Shown piece by piece: positions 27,694-61,710 of a stretch of DNA of 64,000 bases; within the stretch, counting starts at the first letter, position 1; the number at the start of each line of letters is the position of its first letter. Source of the DNA: Artemia franciscana (taxonomy: Eukaryota > Arthropoda > Branchiopoda > Anostraca > Artemiidae); the NCBI RefSeq assembly GCF_032884065.1, contig NC_088881.1, forward strand, positions 368,001 through 432,000. The letters are read 5' to 3'. Under the pieces are notes generated by a model. The model had not been told where the DNA came from and searched no databases. It saw nothing but the letters and a program-made list of their open reading frames with translations. Position numbers and translations under genes: made by a program.

Positions 27694-28110
27694 AATCTAA
27701 TAATAGAAGGAAGGGAATTAGAGTAGATAGAGTAAAGCAAATAGAAGATAGAGGAGGTTGAAGAATTTTTCGTTTTTAACAACAAAAGGTAGGGAAGTAG
27801 AGTAGATAGAGTGAAGTAAATAGTGAATAGAGGAGGTTAAAAAATTGCTCATTTCTAATAATAGAAGGTAGAGAAGTACAAAAAATAGAGTACAGTAAAT
27901 AGTAGATAGAGGAGGTTAAAGCATATCATTCGTAATAATAGAAGGTAGAGAAGTTGAGAAGATGGAGTAAAGTAAATAGTAGATAGAGAAAGTTGAAGAA
28001 TTACTCATTTCTAATAATGGAAGGTAGAGAAGTAGAGTATATAGAGCAAAGTAAATAGTGGATAAAAGAGGTCAAAGAATACTCATTTATAATAATAGAA
28101 GCAGAAGAAG
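27694..28110. repeat. satellite array, ~76-bp unit, continuation
   Basis: Same unit as 24270-26473, about five more copies, ending near 28110. Confidence 0.9.
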
Positions 28111-33233: not shown

Positions 33234-33398
33234 CTAGTTGTTCTTCACTCGCCACTGCTTATCTGTCCCATGGTGAAGCTGGTTCATAACTGTCTTTCCC
33301 CATGATAACCAAATAACACCAATGATTGTACATATCAACATTTCTATGTAATATCCGTCTATTAACGTGACGCATTCTCCTCCAAGCCTGGCGCATTC
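33234..33398 (-). CDS. SLC33A1: acetyl-CoA transporter SLC33A1, terminal exon
   Basis: The acceptor (ACTTTATAG before GAATGC) is followed in phase 0 by 54 codons and a TAG at 33234-33236. The peptide has the family's lumenal Cys pair and last membrane helix: ECARLGGECVTLIDGYYIE, then MLICTIIGVIWLSWG, and it ends WRVKNN. Human SLC33A1 has a corresponding CKKLGGSC...DGYY motif, last helix and a basic KRNN-type C-terminus. The open frame noted on the same strand at 33259-33447 is a shadow in another frame. Confidence 0.9.
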   Translation of the reverse strand, partial: ECARLGGECVTLIDGYYIEMLICTIIGVIWLSWGKTVMNQLHHGTDKQWRVKNN

Positions 33399-37090: not shown

Positions 37091-37209
37091 CAAGGAGTCA
37101 ATCACCCTGATTCTGTATTCCGTTATAGGGAAGCCGTAACTTACTTAAAATTGATTTAAGATAACTGAAATAAAATTATACAACTTTGAAAGGATCCCAA
37201 AAACATTAC

Positions 37210-37425
37210 CTCTATTTCTGAAGTGTTTATGCAGCTTCCAACCCCATCTATAGAACATGTTTTCCTCGTAAAGTAATCAACAAGCCACAGCGCAAGAGTG
37301 GTAGGCCAGTTTCCTCCAAGATTGCAAATGGTATTGAGTAATGTCATATAGGTGCCACCGACGGACGGATCACTAATACGAGCAAAATATGCCATTACGG
37401 ATACAAACATGGAATAGACAGCAAC
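37210..37425 (-). CDS. SLC33A1: acetyl-CoA transporter SLC33A1, penultimate exon
   Basis: 216 nt, phase 0 at both ends, bounded by an acceptor (TTTATTATTACAG, ending at 37426) and a donor (GAG then GTAATG). The 72 residues contain the most conserved block of the family: ISDPSVGGTYMTLLNTICNL followed by GGNWPTTLALWLVD, which matches the VSDPLIGGTYMTLLNT/NLGGNWP region of human SLC33A1. A membrane helix (VAVYSMFVSVMAYFA) precedes it. The Cys-containing end (FTRKTCSIDGVGSC) lies in the expected lumenal loop that the next exon completes. Confidence 0.95.
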
Positions 37426-47954: not shown

Positions 47955-48500
47955 TACCTTGTGGAGACCATAAATGACATGTATTATCATATAGTAATAT
48001 TTCATTTCATATAGTAACATATATTGTGTCGTATCATATATAGTAACATATCATATCCTAGTAACGATATCATATAGTAACAAGTGATACCTGGTTGAGA
48101 GCATAACTGACAACGATTATCATACAGTAATATTTCATATCATATAGTAACATATCGTATATCATATCCTATATAACATATCATATTCATAACATATCAT
48201 ATCATAGTAACCATATCATATAGTAACATTTCATGCCTGGTGGAGGGCATAACTGATAACAATTATCATATAGTAATATTTCATATCATATAGTAACATA
48301 TCACATACAGTAACATATCATATCATAGTTACGATATCATATAGTAATATTCCATACCTGGTGGAGAGCATAACTGACAACTACAATATATAATATTCCA
48401 TATCATATAGTAGCATATAATATATAATATCACATAACATATAACATACCATATAAAGTAACGTATCATAGTAGTGATATCATATAGTAACATTTCATAC
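47955..48500 (-). repeat. four tandem partial copies of the adjacent SLC33A1 exon end plus splice donor
   Basis: On the minus strand the 3' end of exon 48501-48621 (ATGATAATCGTCGTCAGTTA, TGCCCTCCACCAG, donor GTATGA) recurs directly downstream with exon/donor junctions at about 48358, 48237, 48091 and 47958, spacings of 121-146 bp. The copies carry differences (for example CTCAACCAG, CTCCACAAG). The linkers are CATATCATATAGTAAC-type sequence that itself resembles the exon segment TACTATATGATA. Only the copy at 48501 continues into the rest of the exon. Confidence 0.88.
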
Positions 48501-48621
48501 CTGGTGGAGGGCATAACTGACGACGATTATCATATAGTAATATGATGGGAAATTACCATCCTTGTTCTTAAACCAAGGTGTCATCCATACTAGCATAGCG
48601 TACTCAAGTCCCATTACAAGT
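48501..48621 (-). CDS. SLC33A1: acetyl-CoA transporter SLC33A1, internal exon
   Basis: 121 nt, entered one base into a codon (AG from the previous exon plus A makes Arg) and left in phase 0. Acceptor TTTATTTTTGCAG, donor CAG then GTATGA. The 40 complete codons include LVMGLEYAMLVWMTPWF and SYYYMIIVVSYALHQ, matching the LLLGLEYALLVWWTP and YYYIVVLLSYALHQ segments of human SLC33A1. These are two consecutive membrane helices joined by a short loop. The 3' end of this exon has four decayed tandem copies in the following intron. Confidence 0.95.
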
Positions 48622-49228
48622 CTGCAAAAATAAAATAGAATTCTGTTAATTCTTTCGGGAGGGGGAGGATAAGGACAGGGTGAGAAGTCACAAAATCCTA
48701 AAAAAGAGAAGTCTTCTTTTACTATCCTATATGTGTTCAGTTCAGGTAGGTGATTTTGGGGTGAAGTGTACTGGAAGTTTTATTTTGGGGTGAAGATTCG
48801 GTGTAGGCATTAAGAGTTACGCTTGTTTCCTGAAGAGTTTTTCTTTTGATTTGTCTAGTAACTATATTGACTTTGACTTTATCGAATAAGAAACACGCAA
48901 ATAAGGATACAACTCCAGGGACTGATCAATTTTCCCTAGGGCTTAAACGTTAGCCCCTGGAAAATGTCGAGTATTCATATTCAAACATCAATGATTTAAA
49001 TCATAAAATACATCAGATCATATTACATCACAAAGTATTTAACCAAAGGCACTAGTACTATACAGAAAAAAGAGAATCAACCTTGCACAAACCTACTAAA
49101 ACATGCTAAACAAACCTCCTAAACAATCCTGCAAAAGTTACAAAATACATGAGATCATAATACATCACAAAGTATTTAACTAAAGGCACTATGCACTATA
49201 GAGAGTATATTACAGAGATTGATTTTAT
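48622..49228. other. intronic; contains an inverted relative of the 86-bp satellite unit
   Basis: Two diverged direct copies of ATCACAAAGTATTTAAC(C/T)AAAGGCACTA lie at 49025 and 49165. The following AGTACTATACAGAAAAAAG is the inverted counterpart of the satellite segment CTTTTTTCTGTATAGTRC, so single or inverted satellite-like pieces precede the array. Confidence 0.5.
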
Positions 49229-51469
49229 CTTTTTTTTTCTGTATAGGGCATATTGCCTTTGGTTCCATACACAAAAACATAATTACGTACTATACGAAGA
49301 GGGAAGACCACTGATGTTTTTTTTTCTGTATAGTGCATATTGCCTTTCGTTCCAGACACAAACATAACTACATACTATACGAAGAGGGAAGACCACTGAT
49401 GTTTTTTTTTTCTGTATAGTGCATATTGCCTTTGGTTCCAGACACAAACATAACTACATACTATACGAAGAGGGAAGACCACTGATGTTTTTTTTTCTGT
49501 ATAGTGCATATTGCCTTTGGTTCCAGACACAAACATAACTACATACTATACGAAGAGGGAAGACCACTGATGTTTTTTTTTTCTGTATAGTACATATTGC
49601 CTTTGGTTCCAGACACAAACATAACTACATACTATACGAAGAGGGAATACCACTGATGTTTTTTTTTCTGTATAGTGCATATTGCCTTTCGTTCCAGACA
49701 CAAACATAACTACATACTATACGAAGAGGGAAGACCACTGATGTTTTTTTTTTCTGTATAGTGCATATTGCCTTTCGTTCCAGACACAAACATAACTACA
49801 TACTATACGAAGAGGGAAGACCACTGATGTTTTTTTTTCTGTATAGTGCATATTGCCTTTCGTTCCAGACACAAACATAACTACATACTATACGAAGAGG
49901 GAAGACCACTGATGTTTTTTTTTTTTTTTTCTGTATAGTGCATATTGCCTTTGGTTCCAGACACAAACATAACTACATACTATACGAAGAGGGAAGACCA
50001 CTGATGTTTTTTTTTCTGTATAGTGCATATTGCCTTTGGTTCCAGACACAAACATAACTACATACTATACGAAGAAGGAAGACCACTGATGTTTTTTTTT
50101 CTGTATAGTGCATATTGCCTTTCGTTCCAGACACAAACATAACTACATACTATACGAAGAGGGAAGACCACTGATGTTTTTTTTTCTGTATAGTGCATAT
50201 TGCCTTTGGTTCCAGACACAAACATAACTACATACTATACGAAGAGGGAAGACCACTGATGTTTTTTTTTTCTGTATAGTGCATATTGCCTTTGGTTCCA
50301 GACACAAACATAACTACATACTATACGAAGAGGGAAGACCACTGATGTTTTTTTTTTCTGTATAGTGCATATTGCCTTTGGTTCCAGACACAAACATAAC
50401 TACATACTATACGAAGAGGGAAGACCACTGATGTTTTTTTTTCTGTATAGTGCATATTGCCTTTGGTTCCAGACACAAACATAACTACATACTATACGAA
50501 GAGGGAAGACCACTGATGTTTTTTTTTTTCTGTATAGTACATATTGCCTTTGGTTCCAGACACAAACATAACTACATACTATACGAAGAGGGAAGACCAC
50601 TGATGTTTTTTTTTTCTGTATAGTGCATATTGCCTTTGGTTCCAGACACAAACATAACTACATACTATACGAAGAGGGAAGACCACTGATGTTTTTTTTT
50701 TCTGTATAGTGCATATTGCCTTTGGTTCCAGACACAAACATAACTACATACTATACGAAGAGGGAAGACCACTGATGTTTTTTTTTTCTGTATAGTGCAT
50801 ATTGCCTTTGGTTCCAGACACAAACATAACTACATACTATACGAAGAGGGAAGACCACTGATGTTTTTTTTTTCTGTATAGTGCATATTGCCTTTCGTTC
50901 CAGACACAAACATAACTACATACTATACGAAGAGGGAAGACCACTGATGTTTTTTTTTCTGTATAGTGCATATTGCCTTTGGTTCCAGACACAAACATAA
51001 CTACATACTATACGAAGAGGGAAGACCACTGATGTTTTTTTTTTCTGTATAGTACATATTGCCTTTGGTTCCAGACACAAACATAACTACATACTATACG
51101 AAGAGGGAAGACCACTGATGTTTTTTTTTTTTCTGTATAGTGCATATTGCCTTTCGTTCTAGACACAAACATAACTACATACTATACGAAGAGGGAAGAC
51201 CACTGATGTTTTTTTTTTTTCTGTATAGTGCATATTGCCTTTGGTTCCAGACACAAACATAACTACATACTATACGAAGAGGGAAGACCACTGATGTTTT
51301 TTTTTTCTGTATAGTGCATATTGCCTTTCGTTCCAGACACAAACATAACTACATACTATACGAAGAGGGAAGACCACTGATATTTTTTTTTTTCTGTATA
51401 GTGCATATTGCCTTTCGTTCCAGACACAAACATAACTACATACTATACGAAGAGAGAAGACCATTGATG
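49229..51469. repeat. homogeneous satellite array, ~86-bp unit, about 26 copies
   Basis: Each unit has a T-run (9-16 bases), CTGTATAGTGCATATTGCCT, TTGGTTCCAGACACAAACAT, AACTACATACTATACGAAGA and GGGAAGACCACTGATG. Spacing is 85-86 bp plus changes in T-run length. Units differ at only a few recurrent positions (TTTGG/TTTCG, AGTGC/AGTAC). GTATAGT and ACTATAC form a 7-bp inverted pair inside every unit. The open frames across it are artefacts of the repeat. It fills almost half of the SLC33A1 intron between 48621 and 54030. Confidence 0.97.
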
Positions 51470-51689: not shown

Positions 51690-53175
51690 AATCTCAAAAA
51701 GGTGTGATGATGGAGACAATCAGTTTGGTTTTCGTGCGGGTCTTGGTGTTGGGAATGCACATGCAGTTTTCGGATCTATTTTGGAGAGGTATGAGAGAGT
51801 GAAAAAGAAACTTTATACGTTTGTGCAATAGATATTTCTAAAGCATTTGATTCGATCCTAAATCCCCAGCCTGTTTTAGCACTTTTGAGGAGTGGGGTAT
51901 ACCCATTCATTTGTGCCTCCCTATGGCAATGGTATCAAAGCTCTTCTATACGTGTCCGCGTCGAAAATCTTTACGGCAGCCAAATTTCTTTGCGTTCTTG
52001 TTAAGTCCTGAAAAATTTAACAATGTCGTCTGCTATGCAACCTGCAAAAACTGCATGTTCTTATCCATCCATCCATTGAAACAAGTCACCTTTCATATGC
52101 AGATGGCATTCTTCTGCTGTCTGATAATTTGCTATCACTGCAGGCTGCAGTGAACAGCCTTTATGCCGGGTTGTCTGACATCGGCTGTCAGTCGCCTCTG
52201 CTAATACTGAATTTTTCGATTTTGGTTGTCATCACCACCTCGATTCAAAAATTCAGGTTGGCCCTGATTCAATTTTTGCAGTGCATCTCTCAAGTACTTT
52301 GAACTTGCATTCAAGACCTTGACTCAAGCAACAAGGTCATTGACAATAAATGTGTTGAGAGAGAAGTTGAGAAAGTCCTATGGACGTTTCTCTCGGGTTA
52401 AAGGTCAATTTGACAAAAAAAAAAAAAACGCTTGGTTAGCTTTATACCTCGTTTTTTGCTCCCTATGTATTTTTTCTGGTGCCATTATGGAAGTCTTTTA
52501 CCGCGTCAGAACGCCAACAAATTCCGTCTGTCTTTTTCAAATTTTGTAAGTATTTTCTTTGCGTTCCTATTTGGTCCCGTAACAGTTATATTTCCAAACA
52601 ATACCGAGTTTCTGAGATATGTGATAAGATGGATGTTTTAGAAGGCAGATTTAGACAGCAATCTGAGTCAGTCATAGATTTTCCGTTGGGGTGTATTAAT
52701 CGTTTCAAATTTTGTAAGTATTTTCTTCGCGTTCCTATTTGGTCCCGTAACAGTTATATCTCCAAACAATACCGAGTTTCTGAGATATGTGATAAGATGG
52801 ATGTTTTAGAAGGCAGATTTAGACAGCAATCTGAGTCAGTCATAGATTTTCCGTTGGGGTGTATTAATCGTTTCAAATTTTGTAAGTATTTTCTTCGCGT
52901 TCCTATTTGGTCCCGTAACAGTTATATTTCCAAACAATACCGAGTTTCTGATATATGTGATAAAATGGATGTTTTAGAAGGCAGATTTAGACAGCAATCT
53001 GAGTCAGTCATAGATTTTCCGTTGGGGTGTATTAATCGTTTGTGAGTCATTGTTAGTGTATTATTTAGTGTTTGTGATGATAAGGATTTAGATTATGTAA
53101 ATTTCTTTTTCCATACTCCTCTAAGTGTATTTTTGTATGTACAGAGGGTTCAAATAGATTATAGTTATTATTAAA
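51690..53175 (+). pseudogene. LINE fragment (family C), RT to 3' end, decayed
   Basis: RT motifs are spread over several frames: DNQFGFRAGLGVGNAH at 51715, then AIDISKAFDSI (motif A) near 51830, and LSYADGILLLSDNLLSLQ near 52090, in which the catalytic YADD has become YADG. The post-RT region runs through 52300-53043 and includes an in-frame tandem triplication. A short 3' UTR ends with an ATTATTATT-like tail near 53175. Opposite in orientation to the host transporter gene and located in its intron. Stops, frameshifts and the active-site change show it is dead. Confidence 0.88.
52535..53043 (+). repeat. 168-bp in-frame triplication in the LINE ORF2 C-terminus
   Basis: TTTCAAATTTTGTAAGTATT starts at 52535, 52703 and 52871, exactly 168 bp apart, so each copy adds 56 residues (FKFCKYFLRVPIWSRN through DKMDVLEGRFRQQ to DFPLGCINR) without breaking frame. 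The copies differ at only a handful of bases. The related fragment at 33975-34555 has one copy only. Confidence 0.95.
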
Positions 53176-54029
53176 AGTAAAACTTACTAGTTGAACTTCA
53201 ACAACCTGTTTATTCCCAAAACCAGCTAAGGCTTCAAAGCAAATTATCTATCACTAAGATATAGAAATGAAAAGAAATTCACATAAAGTGTGAAATAATG
53301 ATATTCCCTAAAGGGCTGGTGTTCTTGAAAGAAAGCGAAATGCGGATGCGGTCTTTTGCCTCAGCTGCAGATAAGTTTTGTCCCTGATGTAACTTGGAAA
53401 TTGGTTATGCGACTCGCATTTTTAAAGTGTGCCAGTAACTTAATCATACGAGGAAAAGTTTTTTGGACGTGATACCAATGAGCTTCTTGGAATCCTGTAG
53501 AAGACTTTAAAAGGACAGTCGTTTAGTTTTGTAAATATGTTGATGAAGAGTTGAAAGAGGAATAGAAATTTAAGTACCAAGGACGTGAAAATGAAAAAAT
53601 TTTCCCCCAGAGACCCGTCCCAGGTCTATTCATACCTGAAAACAATATTTTTCTCAGATTAAAAAAAAAGTTATTTCGAAATTATAAATTTTTTAGGGCA
53701 GTATCACATTTTTTTCCACTTTGAACTTTGAAAACAAACAAGCAAAATTAATTAGTAAAGCTTAATTAATTAAATTAGTTAGTTGAAATAAATAATTCGT
53801 TAAATTATTTAAATTAATTACTTAAAATTAATTATTTAAACAATTAACAATACTTTTCACTTCTAAAATTTCCAACATTAGCTTTCACATCGACTTTTTT
53901 GGAGGAGATCGACTTTTTAATTTATATTAGTAATTTTATATTGTTCATTTATAGATATTGTTTTATATGACATAATTTGGCTACTTCTAAACTATCATTA
54001 TAATTACTTGAAGTTTGATAGTTACTTAC
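53176..54029. other. intronic, no gene
   Basis: Contains a mid-GC stretch at 53290-53590 of unknown nature and an inverted AACACTG-type repeat (53690-53885) with a long TTAATTAA-rich insertion. Confidence 0.4.
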
Positions 54030-54214
54030 CTATACGGGAAGGCTTTCATGAAAATCTTCATAGGCATTCGACCACTGGTGTATTTGCTAATAACAAAAGG
54101 CAGTATAATTTGCAGTGGTATAAGTGGAATGGCAAGCAAAGCTAGATGTGCTTTCGGAACGCCTTCTTCAACCAGCTTCAAACCAGTAATGGCATCAGCT
54201 GCTGCAAATCCAAT
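54030..54214 (-). CDS. SLC33A1: acetyl-CoA transporter SLC33A1, internal exon
   Basis: 185 nt, phase 0 at the start, two bases into a codon at the end (TAT AG then donor GTAAGTAAC). Acceptor TGAATTTTACTGTTAG. The 61 complete codons include IGFAAADAITGLKLVEEGVP, KAHLALLAIPLIPLQIILPF and FMKAFPY, matching the family segment (T)AKIGFSAADAVTGLKLVEEG and VPMVPLQIILP of the human protein. It holds one membrane helix plus the conserved loop before it. The plus-strand open frame over the same bases is a shadow. Confidence 0.96.
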
Positions 54215-57070: not shown

Positions 57071-60020
57071 CGTTCCCGGAGTTAAAGTAAAGTAATAGTG
57101 TTTTTTTTTTATATATTCACACGTGTTCTTTTTGTTTTAAGGATTTTGTTTTCTCAGCCTCCCTTACGGACAAGCTTTCCTTTTCAGGGGATTTTGATTT
57201 TTTGTTTATTATGTATTTTGTCAAAAAATCCTTCTCTCTTTCACACACAAAAAAAAACTATCCATAACCATGATGGTAAAACCTGGGATCATTAATGCTT
57301 AAAAGATTGACTGATTAATCTTCTCATAACTATCACAAAACTGTCACAAAAACAATCACAGAAAAAACTACCCATAATTCATGTAAAACTTGGTATAAAA
57401 CCTGGAATAAACTGGAAAAACCAGGAATAACAGGAAAAAACATATCCAGGAAAAATCTGGAATCATTAACGTTTAAAAGATTAACTGATTTTGAAAACAT
57501 CTCAACAGTTAGCGTATCAAGCCTATGAGTATCAACGAGCTGGAAACGCGACACAATCTTACCATTCGTAACGTCAAAAACAATATTATATATGTCAACG
57601 TCAAATAAAAAAATAATAAATATCCACGTCAAAAAATATTCACGTGGCAAAAACAAAAGAAATTTTAAAGAACAAATAGAGGCAACCTTCAATTTTTTGA
57701 TCCTTTTTCTGAAGAAGATTAGCAAATCCGGACCGAAAAAAATATTGCTGGAATGCAAAAGAACCATAGAACCTGCAATTTTAGTTAAATTTGCCATGGC
57801 TTGGGCAATTTTTTCCGTATGAAATTCTATTTTTTTTTTTTAATAGTGAAACTAACTAACTCAAAACATGTTGAAGACAGACTTGAACAAAAAGAAACTC
57901 CAAGCCAATTCATTTCCTCTCGACTGAGCAGCAAAGAACCATTTGAACGGAGGAGGAATATTTAAAGTAGGGTCACTAAACATAAAATATGGCCCGTAAA
58001 TAAATAGAAAGAGTAAAGCTAGAAAAAAATACTGGTCAAGCAGTCCACAAGAAGTGACCCTGCCATTGGTTAAAAAAAAGAATAGAACAAAGAATATAGA
58101 ATATAATTAAACTCCATCATCAAAGCGCAATAAAAAATATTCAGCATTCTTTTTAAAACTATAATGATTATATCCAAATACCTCATCTGAAATTTTGTCG
58201 CTGAATCTGTGTTTATTTGGGATTAACGATATTTAAGACCGAGTTGAGGGCCTTGATCTTTCAGAATTAGCAGAAGGTCGTCGATACGCTCTAGAATGGC
58301 CTAAAGTCTTAAACCCCGTCCTTATTCAATTTCTTGTTAAATTATCGGGTCTATTTTACTGTCCCATGACCGACCTACTTTCCCAGAATCACTGAAAGTA
58401 ATTGTAAACGATGCTGATCAGGTCCTTAAAAAGATATGGAAGTAAAATTCATTTGTGTCTTTTAATTGTTCTAACTGTTTTGTATCAGAGAAAGACACCG
58501 ATACGCTCTAGAATGCCTAAGATGTACACATGCTTTATGAATAAGGCGTTATAAAAATGAAAAGGGCAAGAATAAGAAAGATAGGCAAAAAGAAGATATA
58601 AAAGATAGATAGAATATCGAAAAAGAAATGGAAGAATTTTAAAAAAGCGTAAAACAATGTAACTAAGTATAGTCACAAAGTACCAAAGAAATCAGCATTA
58701 GGATTATTGAAACTTGATGCACAGCCTGGGATAATCTAGGATGACCTGATTTTTTTAAGATTTCTCCACTTTGCGTTTACCATCGACATCATAACAATAC
58801 TAATTGTCAGTATAGTACCAGTATGCTATTTCGGTATTGGGAAATTAAAGAATATAAAATGATACATATCTTTGAGAATTAGTTTTGGCTCCACATAACT
58901 GATGATAAATTATTATAAAGAATTATATTTTATAATTTTTTACTGGACTTCCAAGTTCATATTCCTTCAGATTTTTAATGAAATATGGTGGTGACAGGCA
59001 TGTGGACTGATCAAGGACTTTTATGACTCTACCCAACATCTCGTAATTTTCTCAACAGTTGCCTTAGTTGCCAACAGTTGTTTTTTTTTTCATTTTCACA
59101 ACTGTACCGTTCATGACCGAAGAAAATGTCACTGTGGGTGTGGGTGGCACCTAGCATATGACATACATGTGGGTGGCACACAACATAGGAGCTCCATGTC
59201 AGTATAGTACCATGTCAGTTTGCGTAGTAATAGGCGGAGCTTGTTTATTGTATATTTTATCTCCTTGGTTTTTGCGTGGAGTAGTTACAGGACATATTGA
59301 TTTGATTTTTTTTTGTTGTTGTTAGAATACTCTCCTTTTTTAAACTGTAACGGTTTTGATTCTTTCCTTTATAATATTATCCTTCATTTTACGAAAGTAA
59401 TTTTATAGGTATCAAATACCACAAAAATGGAATTAAACTCGGTGGAAAATATAAAATAATAAGAAGAAGAAATAAGCTAAGGCAAGAAATAATTAACACA
59501 CAAATTATTCTGACACGTTTTATTTAAACTAAAATATTCTCGCGTTATCACAGTTATTCTATCAGCATCCTAAATTCTATGGTAGCACAGTGGATTCATT
59601 CTAGTTTGACAATACGGTGCCCGGGAGTGTATCTCCACAGGTGCAACTATGAATTTCCCAAAAAAGAGGTCGAAGGGTTAAGTATACTCCGACGTCGGTT
59701 CAGCATATTCCCAAGAAACATCTAATATTGCTAGGCGAGGCCCTCGCGTCTGGCCTAAATATATGTTGTTTTTTTTTAGTATCATTTATATATTCTTTTT
59801 TCCTTGCAAGTAGCCTGTCAGTTGATTTAACCCCTTTCAGGACGCATAGTACATAGCACTGTTATTATACACAGATATAGTTTTCACTTCTTAAATACTT
59901 TGGCTTCTTAGACTACTACACTTAAAACGGGCATAGTCCACCCACGGATAATTTAGAGTTTGCCATAGCTTTCAAAACCTAGGTTAAAATGGCAGCAATT
60001 TAAAAAAGGATTCTTCTGAC
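57071..60020. other. intronic, no gene recognised
   Basis: A diverged pair (57256-57325 and 57363-57490) shares CATTAA(T/C)G(C/T)TTAAAAGATT(G/A)ACTGATT. A block at 59580-59770 is GC-richer (GTGCCCGGGAGTGTATCTCC) and opens with GGTAGCACAGTGG, loosely like a SINE head, but no B box was found. The rest is AT-rich. Confidence 0.4.
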
Positions 60021-60735
<715 letters not shown>

Positions 60736-61235: not shown

Positions 61236-61492
61236 TATTAGTTTTAGTAGTTATTGAAATTTAGAAAATTTTGTACCAGGAATATACTTTTTGAGGCACT
61301 ATTTTTTGACAACTTTTAATTCTTTCAGGTGATGGGTAACTATACTTAGTTGAAACCAAATAAGAAGTGGACTAACCAAATGTCTAGTAAAATATAAATC
61401 ATCAGATACTCCTTGTTGGTAGGTTCCCTTCACACTGTATTCTTCAAAAATTTTAGTTATGAAAACAGTTATCTCAAAAGAATTCCTCTTAC

Positions 61493-61710
61493 CTTGCAGG
61501 TTAAAAGGAAAACAGCTAAGATTTTAACGCTGGGTAGTTTGATAATGTGCCATAAAAGTTTGTAGGTCTCTTTCACACCTCTCTCTTCTTCAACTTCTTC
61601 ATGGTCCTTTTCATCTTCAATTAAATGTTCATTGGATTCCTTTTCGGTCTTGAAGAGCCACACTAACGTTGTTGTGATCATAAATACAACTCCCCAAAAG
61701 AACAAGAACG
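61493..61710 (-). CDS. SLC33A1: acetyl-CoA transporter SLC33A1, first well-supported exon in the window
   Basis: 218 nt, entered two bases before a full codon and left in phase 0. Acceptor CTTCCTGTTTTTAG, donor AAG then GTAAGAGG. It encodes a membrane helix (FLFFWGVVFMITTTLVWLF), a charged cytosolic-type loop rich in Glu/Lys, the conserved ETYKLLWHIIKLPSVKIL and the start of the next helix (AVFLLTCK). Human SLC33A1 has FLFFWGTFFLITTTLVALL and a DTYKLLFAIIKMPAV segment at the same place. The GAA/GAG-rich codons for the acidic loop match the start of the microsatellite in the decayed copy at 60021. The upstream coding exons are missing or beyond 64000. Confidence 0.96.

Follow-up and report, generated by a model that had tools for sequence, protein, structure and literature searches.

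Directly downstream of a 121-nt exon of the acetyl-coenzyme A transporter gene SLC33A1, the end of the exon and its splice donor are present four more times on the minus strand of the following intron. On sequence comparison, this array is very probably a decaying minisatellite of the mirage type that spans an exon-intron boundary and is probably neutral with respect to splicing. All positions refer to the window, the whole stretch of 64,000 nucleotides that was analysed.

SLC33A1 Exons in the Window

The 40 codons of the exon, denoted exon E, match a solved acetyl-coenzyme A transporter 1 (SLC33A1) end to end (E 5.1e-10), and the match stops at ...SYALHQ, the last codon of the exon. Both this protein match and a tblastn search, in which the query was the human protein sequence, identify the encoded segment as conserved and ending YALHQ. 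The same tblastn search located further SLC33A1 exons on the minus strand at about 61490–61708, 54029–54214, 37207–37425 and 33237–33395, and the ends of the first three of these were set by donor motifs at 61493, 54030 and 37210. The exons that frame the array are as follows.

54030..54214, minus strand, preceding SLC33A1 exon D, placed by tblastn, donor motif and open frame
48501..48621, minus strand, SLC33A1 exon E, 121 nt, ending ...YYYMIIVVSYALHQ with a phase-0 donor
37210..37425, minus strand, next SLC33A1 exon F, placed by tblastn and continuing the frame of the exon that ends at 48501

A single open frame extends across the junctions of exons C, D, E and F, which places the intron after exon E at 48500 to 37426, about 11 kb, starting after a complete codon. 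The join to 37425, assumed in an earlier reading of the window that was based on its letters (the sequence-only reading), was thereby borne out. Stops appear where the exon at 33237–33395 is appended, with its border unfitted.

Copies of the Exon End and Its Donor

The five junctions, including that of the exon itself, are listed below, with identities to the last 30 nt of exon E.

48499..48500, minus strand, GT of donor 1 at the true exon end, CAG/GTATGA
48358..48387, minus strand, copy 2 exon-like block, 25/30; donor CAG/GTATGG at 48357
48237..48278, minus strand, copy 3 exon-like block (YYYMIIVISYALHQ), with a tblastn match, 27/30; donor CAG/GCATGA at 48236
48091..48132, minus strand, copy 4 exon-like block, 27/30; donor CAG/GTATCA at 48090, +5G lost
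47958..47999, minus strand, copy 5 exon-like block, the most diverged, 22/30; donor AAG/GTATGA at 47957

With first intron bases at 48500, 48357, 48236, 48090 and 47957, the units are spaced 143, 121, 146 and 133 nt apart, in agreement with the 120–146 bp first proposed. The sequence-only reading had also claimed that the exon end recurs four more times and had named chance likeness as a danger to this claim, which nevertheless stands: identities of 22–27 of 30 are far above the maximum of 18 reached when the 600-nt array was shuffled 1000 times with its dinucleotides preserved, and the best matches elsewhere in the window are 18/30 on the minus strand and 20/30 on the plus strand. When the comparison is extended to 44 nt (30 exonic and 14 intronic), copies 2 to 5 score 37, 40, 38 and 35, against a shuffle maximum of 26 and a best score elsewhere in the window of 27.

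Two details of that reading were modified. The repeated exonic stretch, given as about 40 nt, has this length in copies 3 to 5, and its first part is rearranged in copy 2. A junction resembling (A)CCAG/GTAT had been assigned to every copy, and here the departures are ACCAG/GCAT in copy 3, ACCAG/GTATCA in copy 4 and ACAAG/GTAT in copy 5; AG/GT is therefore present in four of the five copies, including the exon, and copy 3 carries AG/GC.

The possibility that the copies represent full exons was rejected, the 5' boundary region of exon E having no other copy within the window at E 0.01. Past copy 5 the repeats cease and the intron continues with GTATGAAATGTTATAATATAT, which may be its original flank.

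The Short Repeat Unit of the Linkers

The 13-mer TTACTATATGATA encodes part of YYYMII in exon E. The minus strand carries nine exact occurrences, one exonic and eight within the array, with starts between 48540 and 47997, and the 13-mer is absent from the rest of the window on either strand, with no exact occurrence at all on the plus strand.

47985..48490, minus strand, the eight exact intronic matches to TTACTATATGATA, located in both linkers and exon-like blocks (the exonic one starts at 48540)

When up to two mismatches are allowed, the minus strand of the window carries 12 occurrences in the array and four outside it, and the plus strand one and two, respectively. In copies 3 and 4 the unit is found ahead of the exon-like block, at the start of the block and past the donor, with a mismatch in one of these six cases; it is missing from one of the three positions in each of the exon, copy 2 and copy 5. 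The exon-like blocks that carry TTACTATATGATA with at most one mismatch (at 48276, 48130 and 47997, in copies 3 to 5) are all preceded by ATGAAATA, which is one base from ATGAAATG, the flank of the exon E donor, and exactly ATGAAATG or ATGAAATA stands ahead of TTACTATATGATA in five of the 12 occurrences. The linkers have TTACTATATGATA in common with the exon, and the relation suspected earlier, that of a linker resembling a slipped version of exon sequence, is real.

Direction of Growth and Divergence of the Units

Sequence comparison identifies exon E as the seed from which the array grew into the intron, because the end of the exon, with the repeated part included, is conserved with human SLC33A1. 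The converse order, with the array first and the exon later, was rejected on the same grounds, and the limitation of TTACTATATGATA to the exon and the array within the window adds to the support for the original proposal that the exon end seeded the minisatellite.

Over the core columns, copies 2 to 5 differ from the exon at 10/50, 4/54, 7/54 and 9/54 positions, with copy 3 nearest to the exon over 54 columns. Copies 2 to 4 differ from one another at 9/54 to 12/50 positions and are no closer to each other than to the exon (4/54 to 10/50), a pattern as would be expected if each copy were decaying from an exon-like state. The linker that follows the donor behaves differently, in that copies 2 to 4 resemble one another (4/45 to 5/46) and the exon's flank stands apart (13/46 to 14/46), and this suggests a later spread of whole units among copies 2 to 4. 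Greater likeness among inner than among edge units holds for the linker only. Distances between whole units also take in flanks of copies 1 and 5 that do not repeat. Alignment of the five copies had been proposed as a way of reconstructing their order, and it gave no order that is well supported, the best split being found in 280 of 500 bootstraps.

Summed over the pairwise comparisons of copies 2 to 4, differences amount to 20/112 in the exon-like block, 12/42 in the donor block (donor+14) and 4/61 and 14/136 in two linker blocks. The donor and exon-like blocks are thus no better kept than the linkers, although the numbers are small and interdependent, with the rearrangement in copy 2 and the donor flank of copy 4 contributing much of the total. 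A third-position bias was set aside as a sign of selection, since some of the differences may reflect a synonymous substitution in the exon itself; at one site, a possible case, copies 2 to 5 carry T and the exon C.

Consequences for Splicing

Among the four extra donors, that of copy 3 is damaged by GT to GC and that of copy 4 by loss of +5G, and the junctions of the array are decaying. The earlier suggestion of up to five potential 5' splice sites in a row is weakened by the absence of a key position from these two donors, and further by a donor block that in copies 2 to 4 has fared no better than the linkers and by the published parallels cited below, in which regular splicing is described as unaffected or as limited to the first donor. 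That use of a downstream donor would add intron sequence with stops was confirmed: any of them would add V and then TGA, an immediate stop.

Donor strength was scored with a frequency matrix, in which donor 2 reaches 9.68 and donor 1 8.40, ranking 2 and 10 of the 886 GT/GC sites. Strength alone does not, therefore, favour the true donor, the choice of which would rest on position or exon context. RNA structure that might hide the donors was rejected, as folding of 631 nt revealed no unusual structure (z = +1.10, with 18 of 20 shuffles folding at least as well).

Stops that lie more than 50 nt ahead of a junction usually make a transcript a target of nonsense-mediated decay. A working ladder, consisting either of donors or of dual AG/GT sites, by which part of the long intron would be cut out one repeat length at a time or some of the transcripts would end at V-stop, appears unlikely. 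If it were true, copy number would set SLC33A1 output and would vary between individuals.

The first form of ladder, in which the array would tune SLC33A1 output through regulated use of the downstream donors, the resulting transcripts ending at V-stop and being destroyed, is improbable to a marked degree. In its favour, the identical immediate TGA would follow every downstream donor, the distances from stop to new junction of 137, 258, 404 and 537 nt would suffice for decay by the 50-nt rule, and donors 2 and 5 still score well, donor 5 ranking 13 of 886. Against this, the two damaged donors rank 93 and 61 of 886, the donor block of copies 2 to 4 has been kept no better than the linkers, and the decay of the extra donors is not the trace that would be expected from selection for a donor ladder. 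Moreover, splicing of human F7 intron 7, which carries 37-bp donor repeats, is reported to rely normally on the most upstream donor alone (PMC6627357).

A recursive splice site, or ratchet point, is an AG/GT that follows a pyrimidine-rich stretch. In the second form of ladder, the AG/GT copies would serve first as acceptor and then as donor, in recursive or nested splicing with zero-length exons that would remove part of the intron in steps of about 120–145 nt, and we consider this very improbable. The presence of AG/GT in all but one of the five copies speaks for it, as does the pyrimidine content of the 20 nt ahead of the last four bases, which is 12–13 in the copies and, for the acceptors of exons C to G in turn, 18, 11, 14, 12 and 12; the copies lie within the 11–14 of four of the gene's own acceptors and below the fifth (18), and an objection that they are too pyrimidine-poor for acceptor use was dropped. 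Dual use of AGGT has also been described for the tandem repeats of human UBC and is reported to be enriched in tandem repeat genes (PMC10809524). The decay of donor positions in two copies counts against stepwise removal, and the papers on mirages report no disturbed regular splicing, although silent steps would leave the mature mRNA unmarked.

An assembly artefact or a chance likeness in an AT-rich intron is hardly credible, for although AT-rich repeats misassemble easily and the draft version of one amphioxus mirage seems, according to PMC3087553, to be aberrantly assembled, the units here differ in sequence and length, unlike simple stutter, and chance is excluded by the shuffles.

A Probable Course of Events

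For the reading preferred here, a neutral minisatellite spanning the boundary, the following course can be proposed. An early tandem duplication would have joined post-donor intron sequence (GTATGAAATG) to the exon's own TTACTATATGATA, at a TTA common to both sides, and this would have produced a second exon end with its donor. Slippage of the short TTACTATATGATA unit would then have generated the linkers, and duplication of whole units the five copies that now lie 121–146 nt apart. Selection on the protein would preserve the true exon as the other copies decay. The spliceosome would probably take the exon's own donor, the most upstream one, such that the whole array leaves with the intron of about 11 kb and a normal mRNA results.

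Comparison with Known Boundary Repeats

Tandem repeats across exon-intron boundaries have been described in amphioxus as mirages (PMC3087553, PMC3902484). PMC3087553 reports mirages in Adh3 and in the globins BflGb6 and BflGb9, with units of 10–72 bp and 150–160 bp, and PMC3902484 adds TnC, and PGBD5 with imperfect repeats of 60 and 108 bp. According to the former, AG/GT occurs in many but not all mirage units, inner units are homogenised with the cluster edges exempt, mirage lengths differ between haplotypes, and the data suggest that regular splicing is left undisturbed.

The SLC33A1 array fits this class in its anatomy, as judged from the sequence. It consists of tandem repeats that span an exon-intron boundary, AG/GT is present in many but not all of its units, and its units of 121–146 nt compare with 150–160 bp for the globin mirages and 60 or 108 bp for PGBD5. 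The BflGb9 mirage likewise contains a duplicate of an exon 3' boundary. The homogenisation of inner units may be paralleled by the likeness of copies 2 to 4 in the linker and not in the core. The array differs from the amphioxus mirages in the gene concerned and in having a linker built of a nested short unit held in common with the exon. Moreover, length differences and normal splicing have been reported for mirages, whereas the SLC33A1 array was read from a single assembly; its length may also be unstable. The class has already been described, with several reported examples, and the SLC33A1 array is a further one, such that the growth of an array from exon plus donor, earlier called unusual, is so only in part.

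Human F7 intron 7 resembles the array in that its true donor belongs to the first repeat of a highly homologous series, which leaves a row of intronic donor copies; the differences lie in its 37-bp unit of variable number and in first-donor use, which is reported for F7 and predicted for SLC33A1. Tandem AG/GT copies, as in the SLC33A1 array, also feature in the Rogers model of intron gain by AGGT tandem duplication (PMC4974935, PMC3629103), for which the fission yeast cases carry AGGC, and in the AGGT dual-specific sites of UBC. Unlike the intron-gain cases, the SLC33A1 copies sit inside an existing intron. Internal tandem repeats are also found at exon-intron boundaries of human duplicated genes, some of them tied to new introns and alternative splicing (PMC2812944), and resemble the array in being minisatellites at such boundaries; that they can create introns counts against a neutral reading.

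Local Duplication and Other Features of the Window

Local duplication is common in the window: of 1065 tiles, each 120 nt long, 231 have a copy on the same strand no more than 2 kb away (E up to 1e-10). Two of four SLC33A1 donors and none of five acceptors are matched elsewhere in the window below E 1e-10, and, given the tile background, duplication is not enriched at the donors (P 0.21 for at least two of four). The exon ends seem to have been drawn into the duplication to which this stretch is locally prone. This makes the array less remarkable and agrees with the general picture. Further features of the window are as follows.

59971–60107, minus strand, intronic, a decayed copy that comprises the end of the SLC33A1 exon 61493–61710 and its donor (local alignment score 108.8; highest of 500 shuffles, 61.6)
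60100–60294, a GA tract adjoining this copy, at the place where the exon 61493–61710 has AGAGAGAG
49230–51469, an 86-bp tandem array of 26 copies at 96%, in the intron directly upstream of exon E
near 49042–49072, a short stretch related by eye to the 86-bp array, in opposite orientation
52535–53041, a 168-bp tandem array of three copies at 98%, within a plus-strand open frame of 201 residues
24540–26474 and 27696–28101, two arrays of a nearly identical 78–79-bp unit, about 1.2 kb apart, the gap between them holding a minus-strand open frame of 107 residues
20425–23327, plus strand, open frames resembling by eye the endonuclease and reverse transcriptase parts of a non-LTR retrotransposon

The exon's AGAGAGAG may have been the origin of the GA tract, and upstream of the tract there is no likeness to the exon beyond chance (163/500 shuffles). 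No Rfam families at gathering score and no tRNAs were detected in the window.

Significance of the SLC33A1 Array

The array is a clear case of intronic repeats seeded by an exon end, in which the source and the fate of the duplicated donors are legible in one sequence, and no new mechanism is needed for it. If the host is not a lancelet, it would extend the amphioxus mirages of the cited papers beyond that group, with F7 as a human parallel, and it constitutes a natural test of how a cell chooses between near-identical donors.
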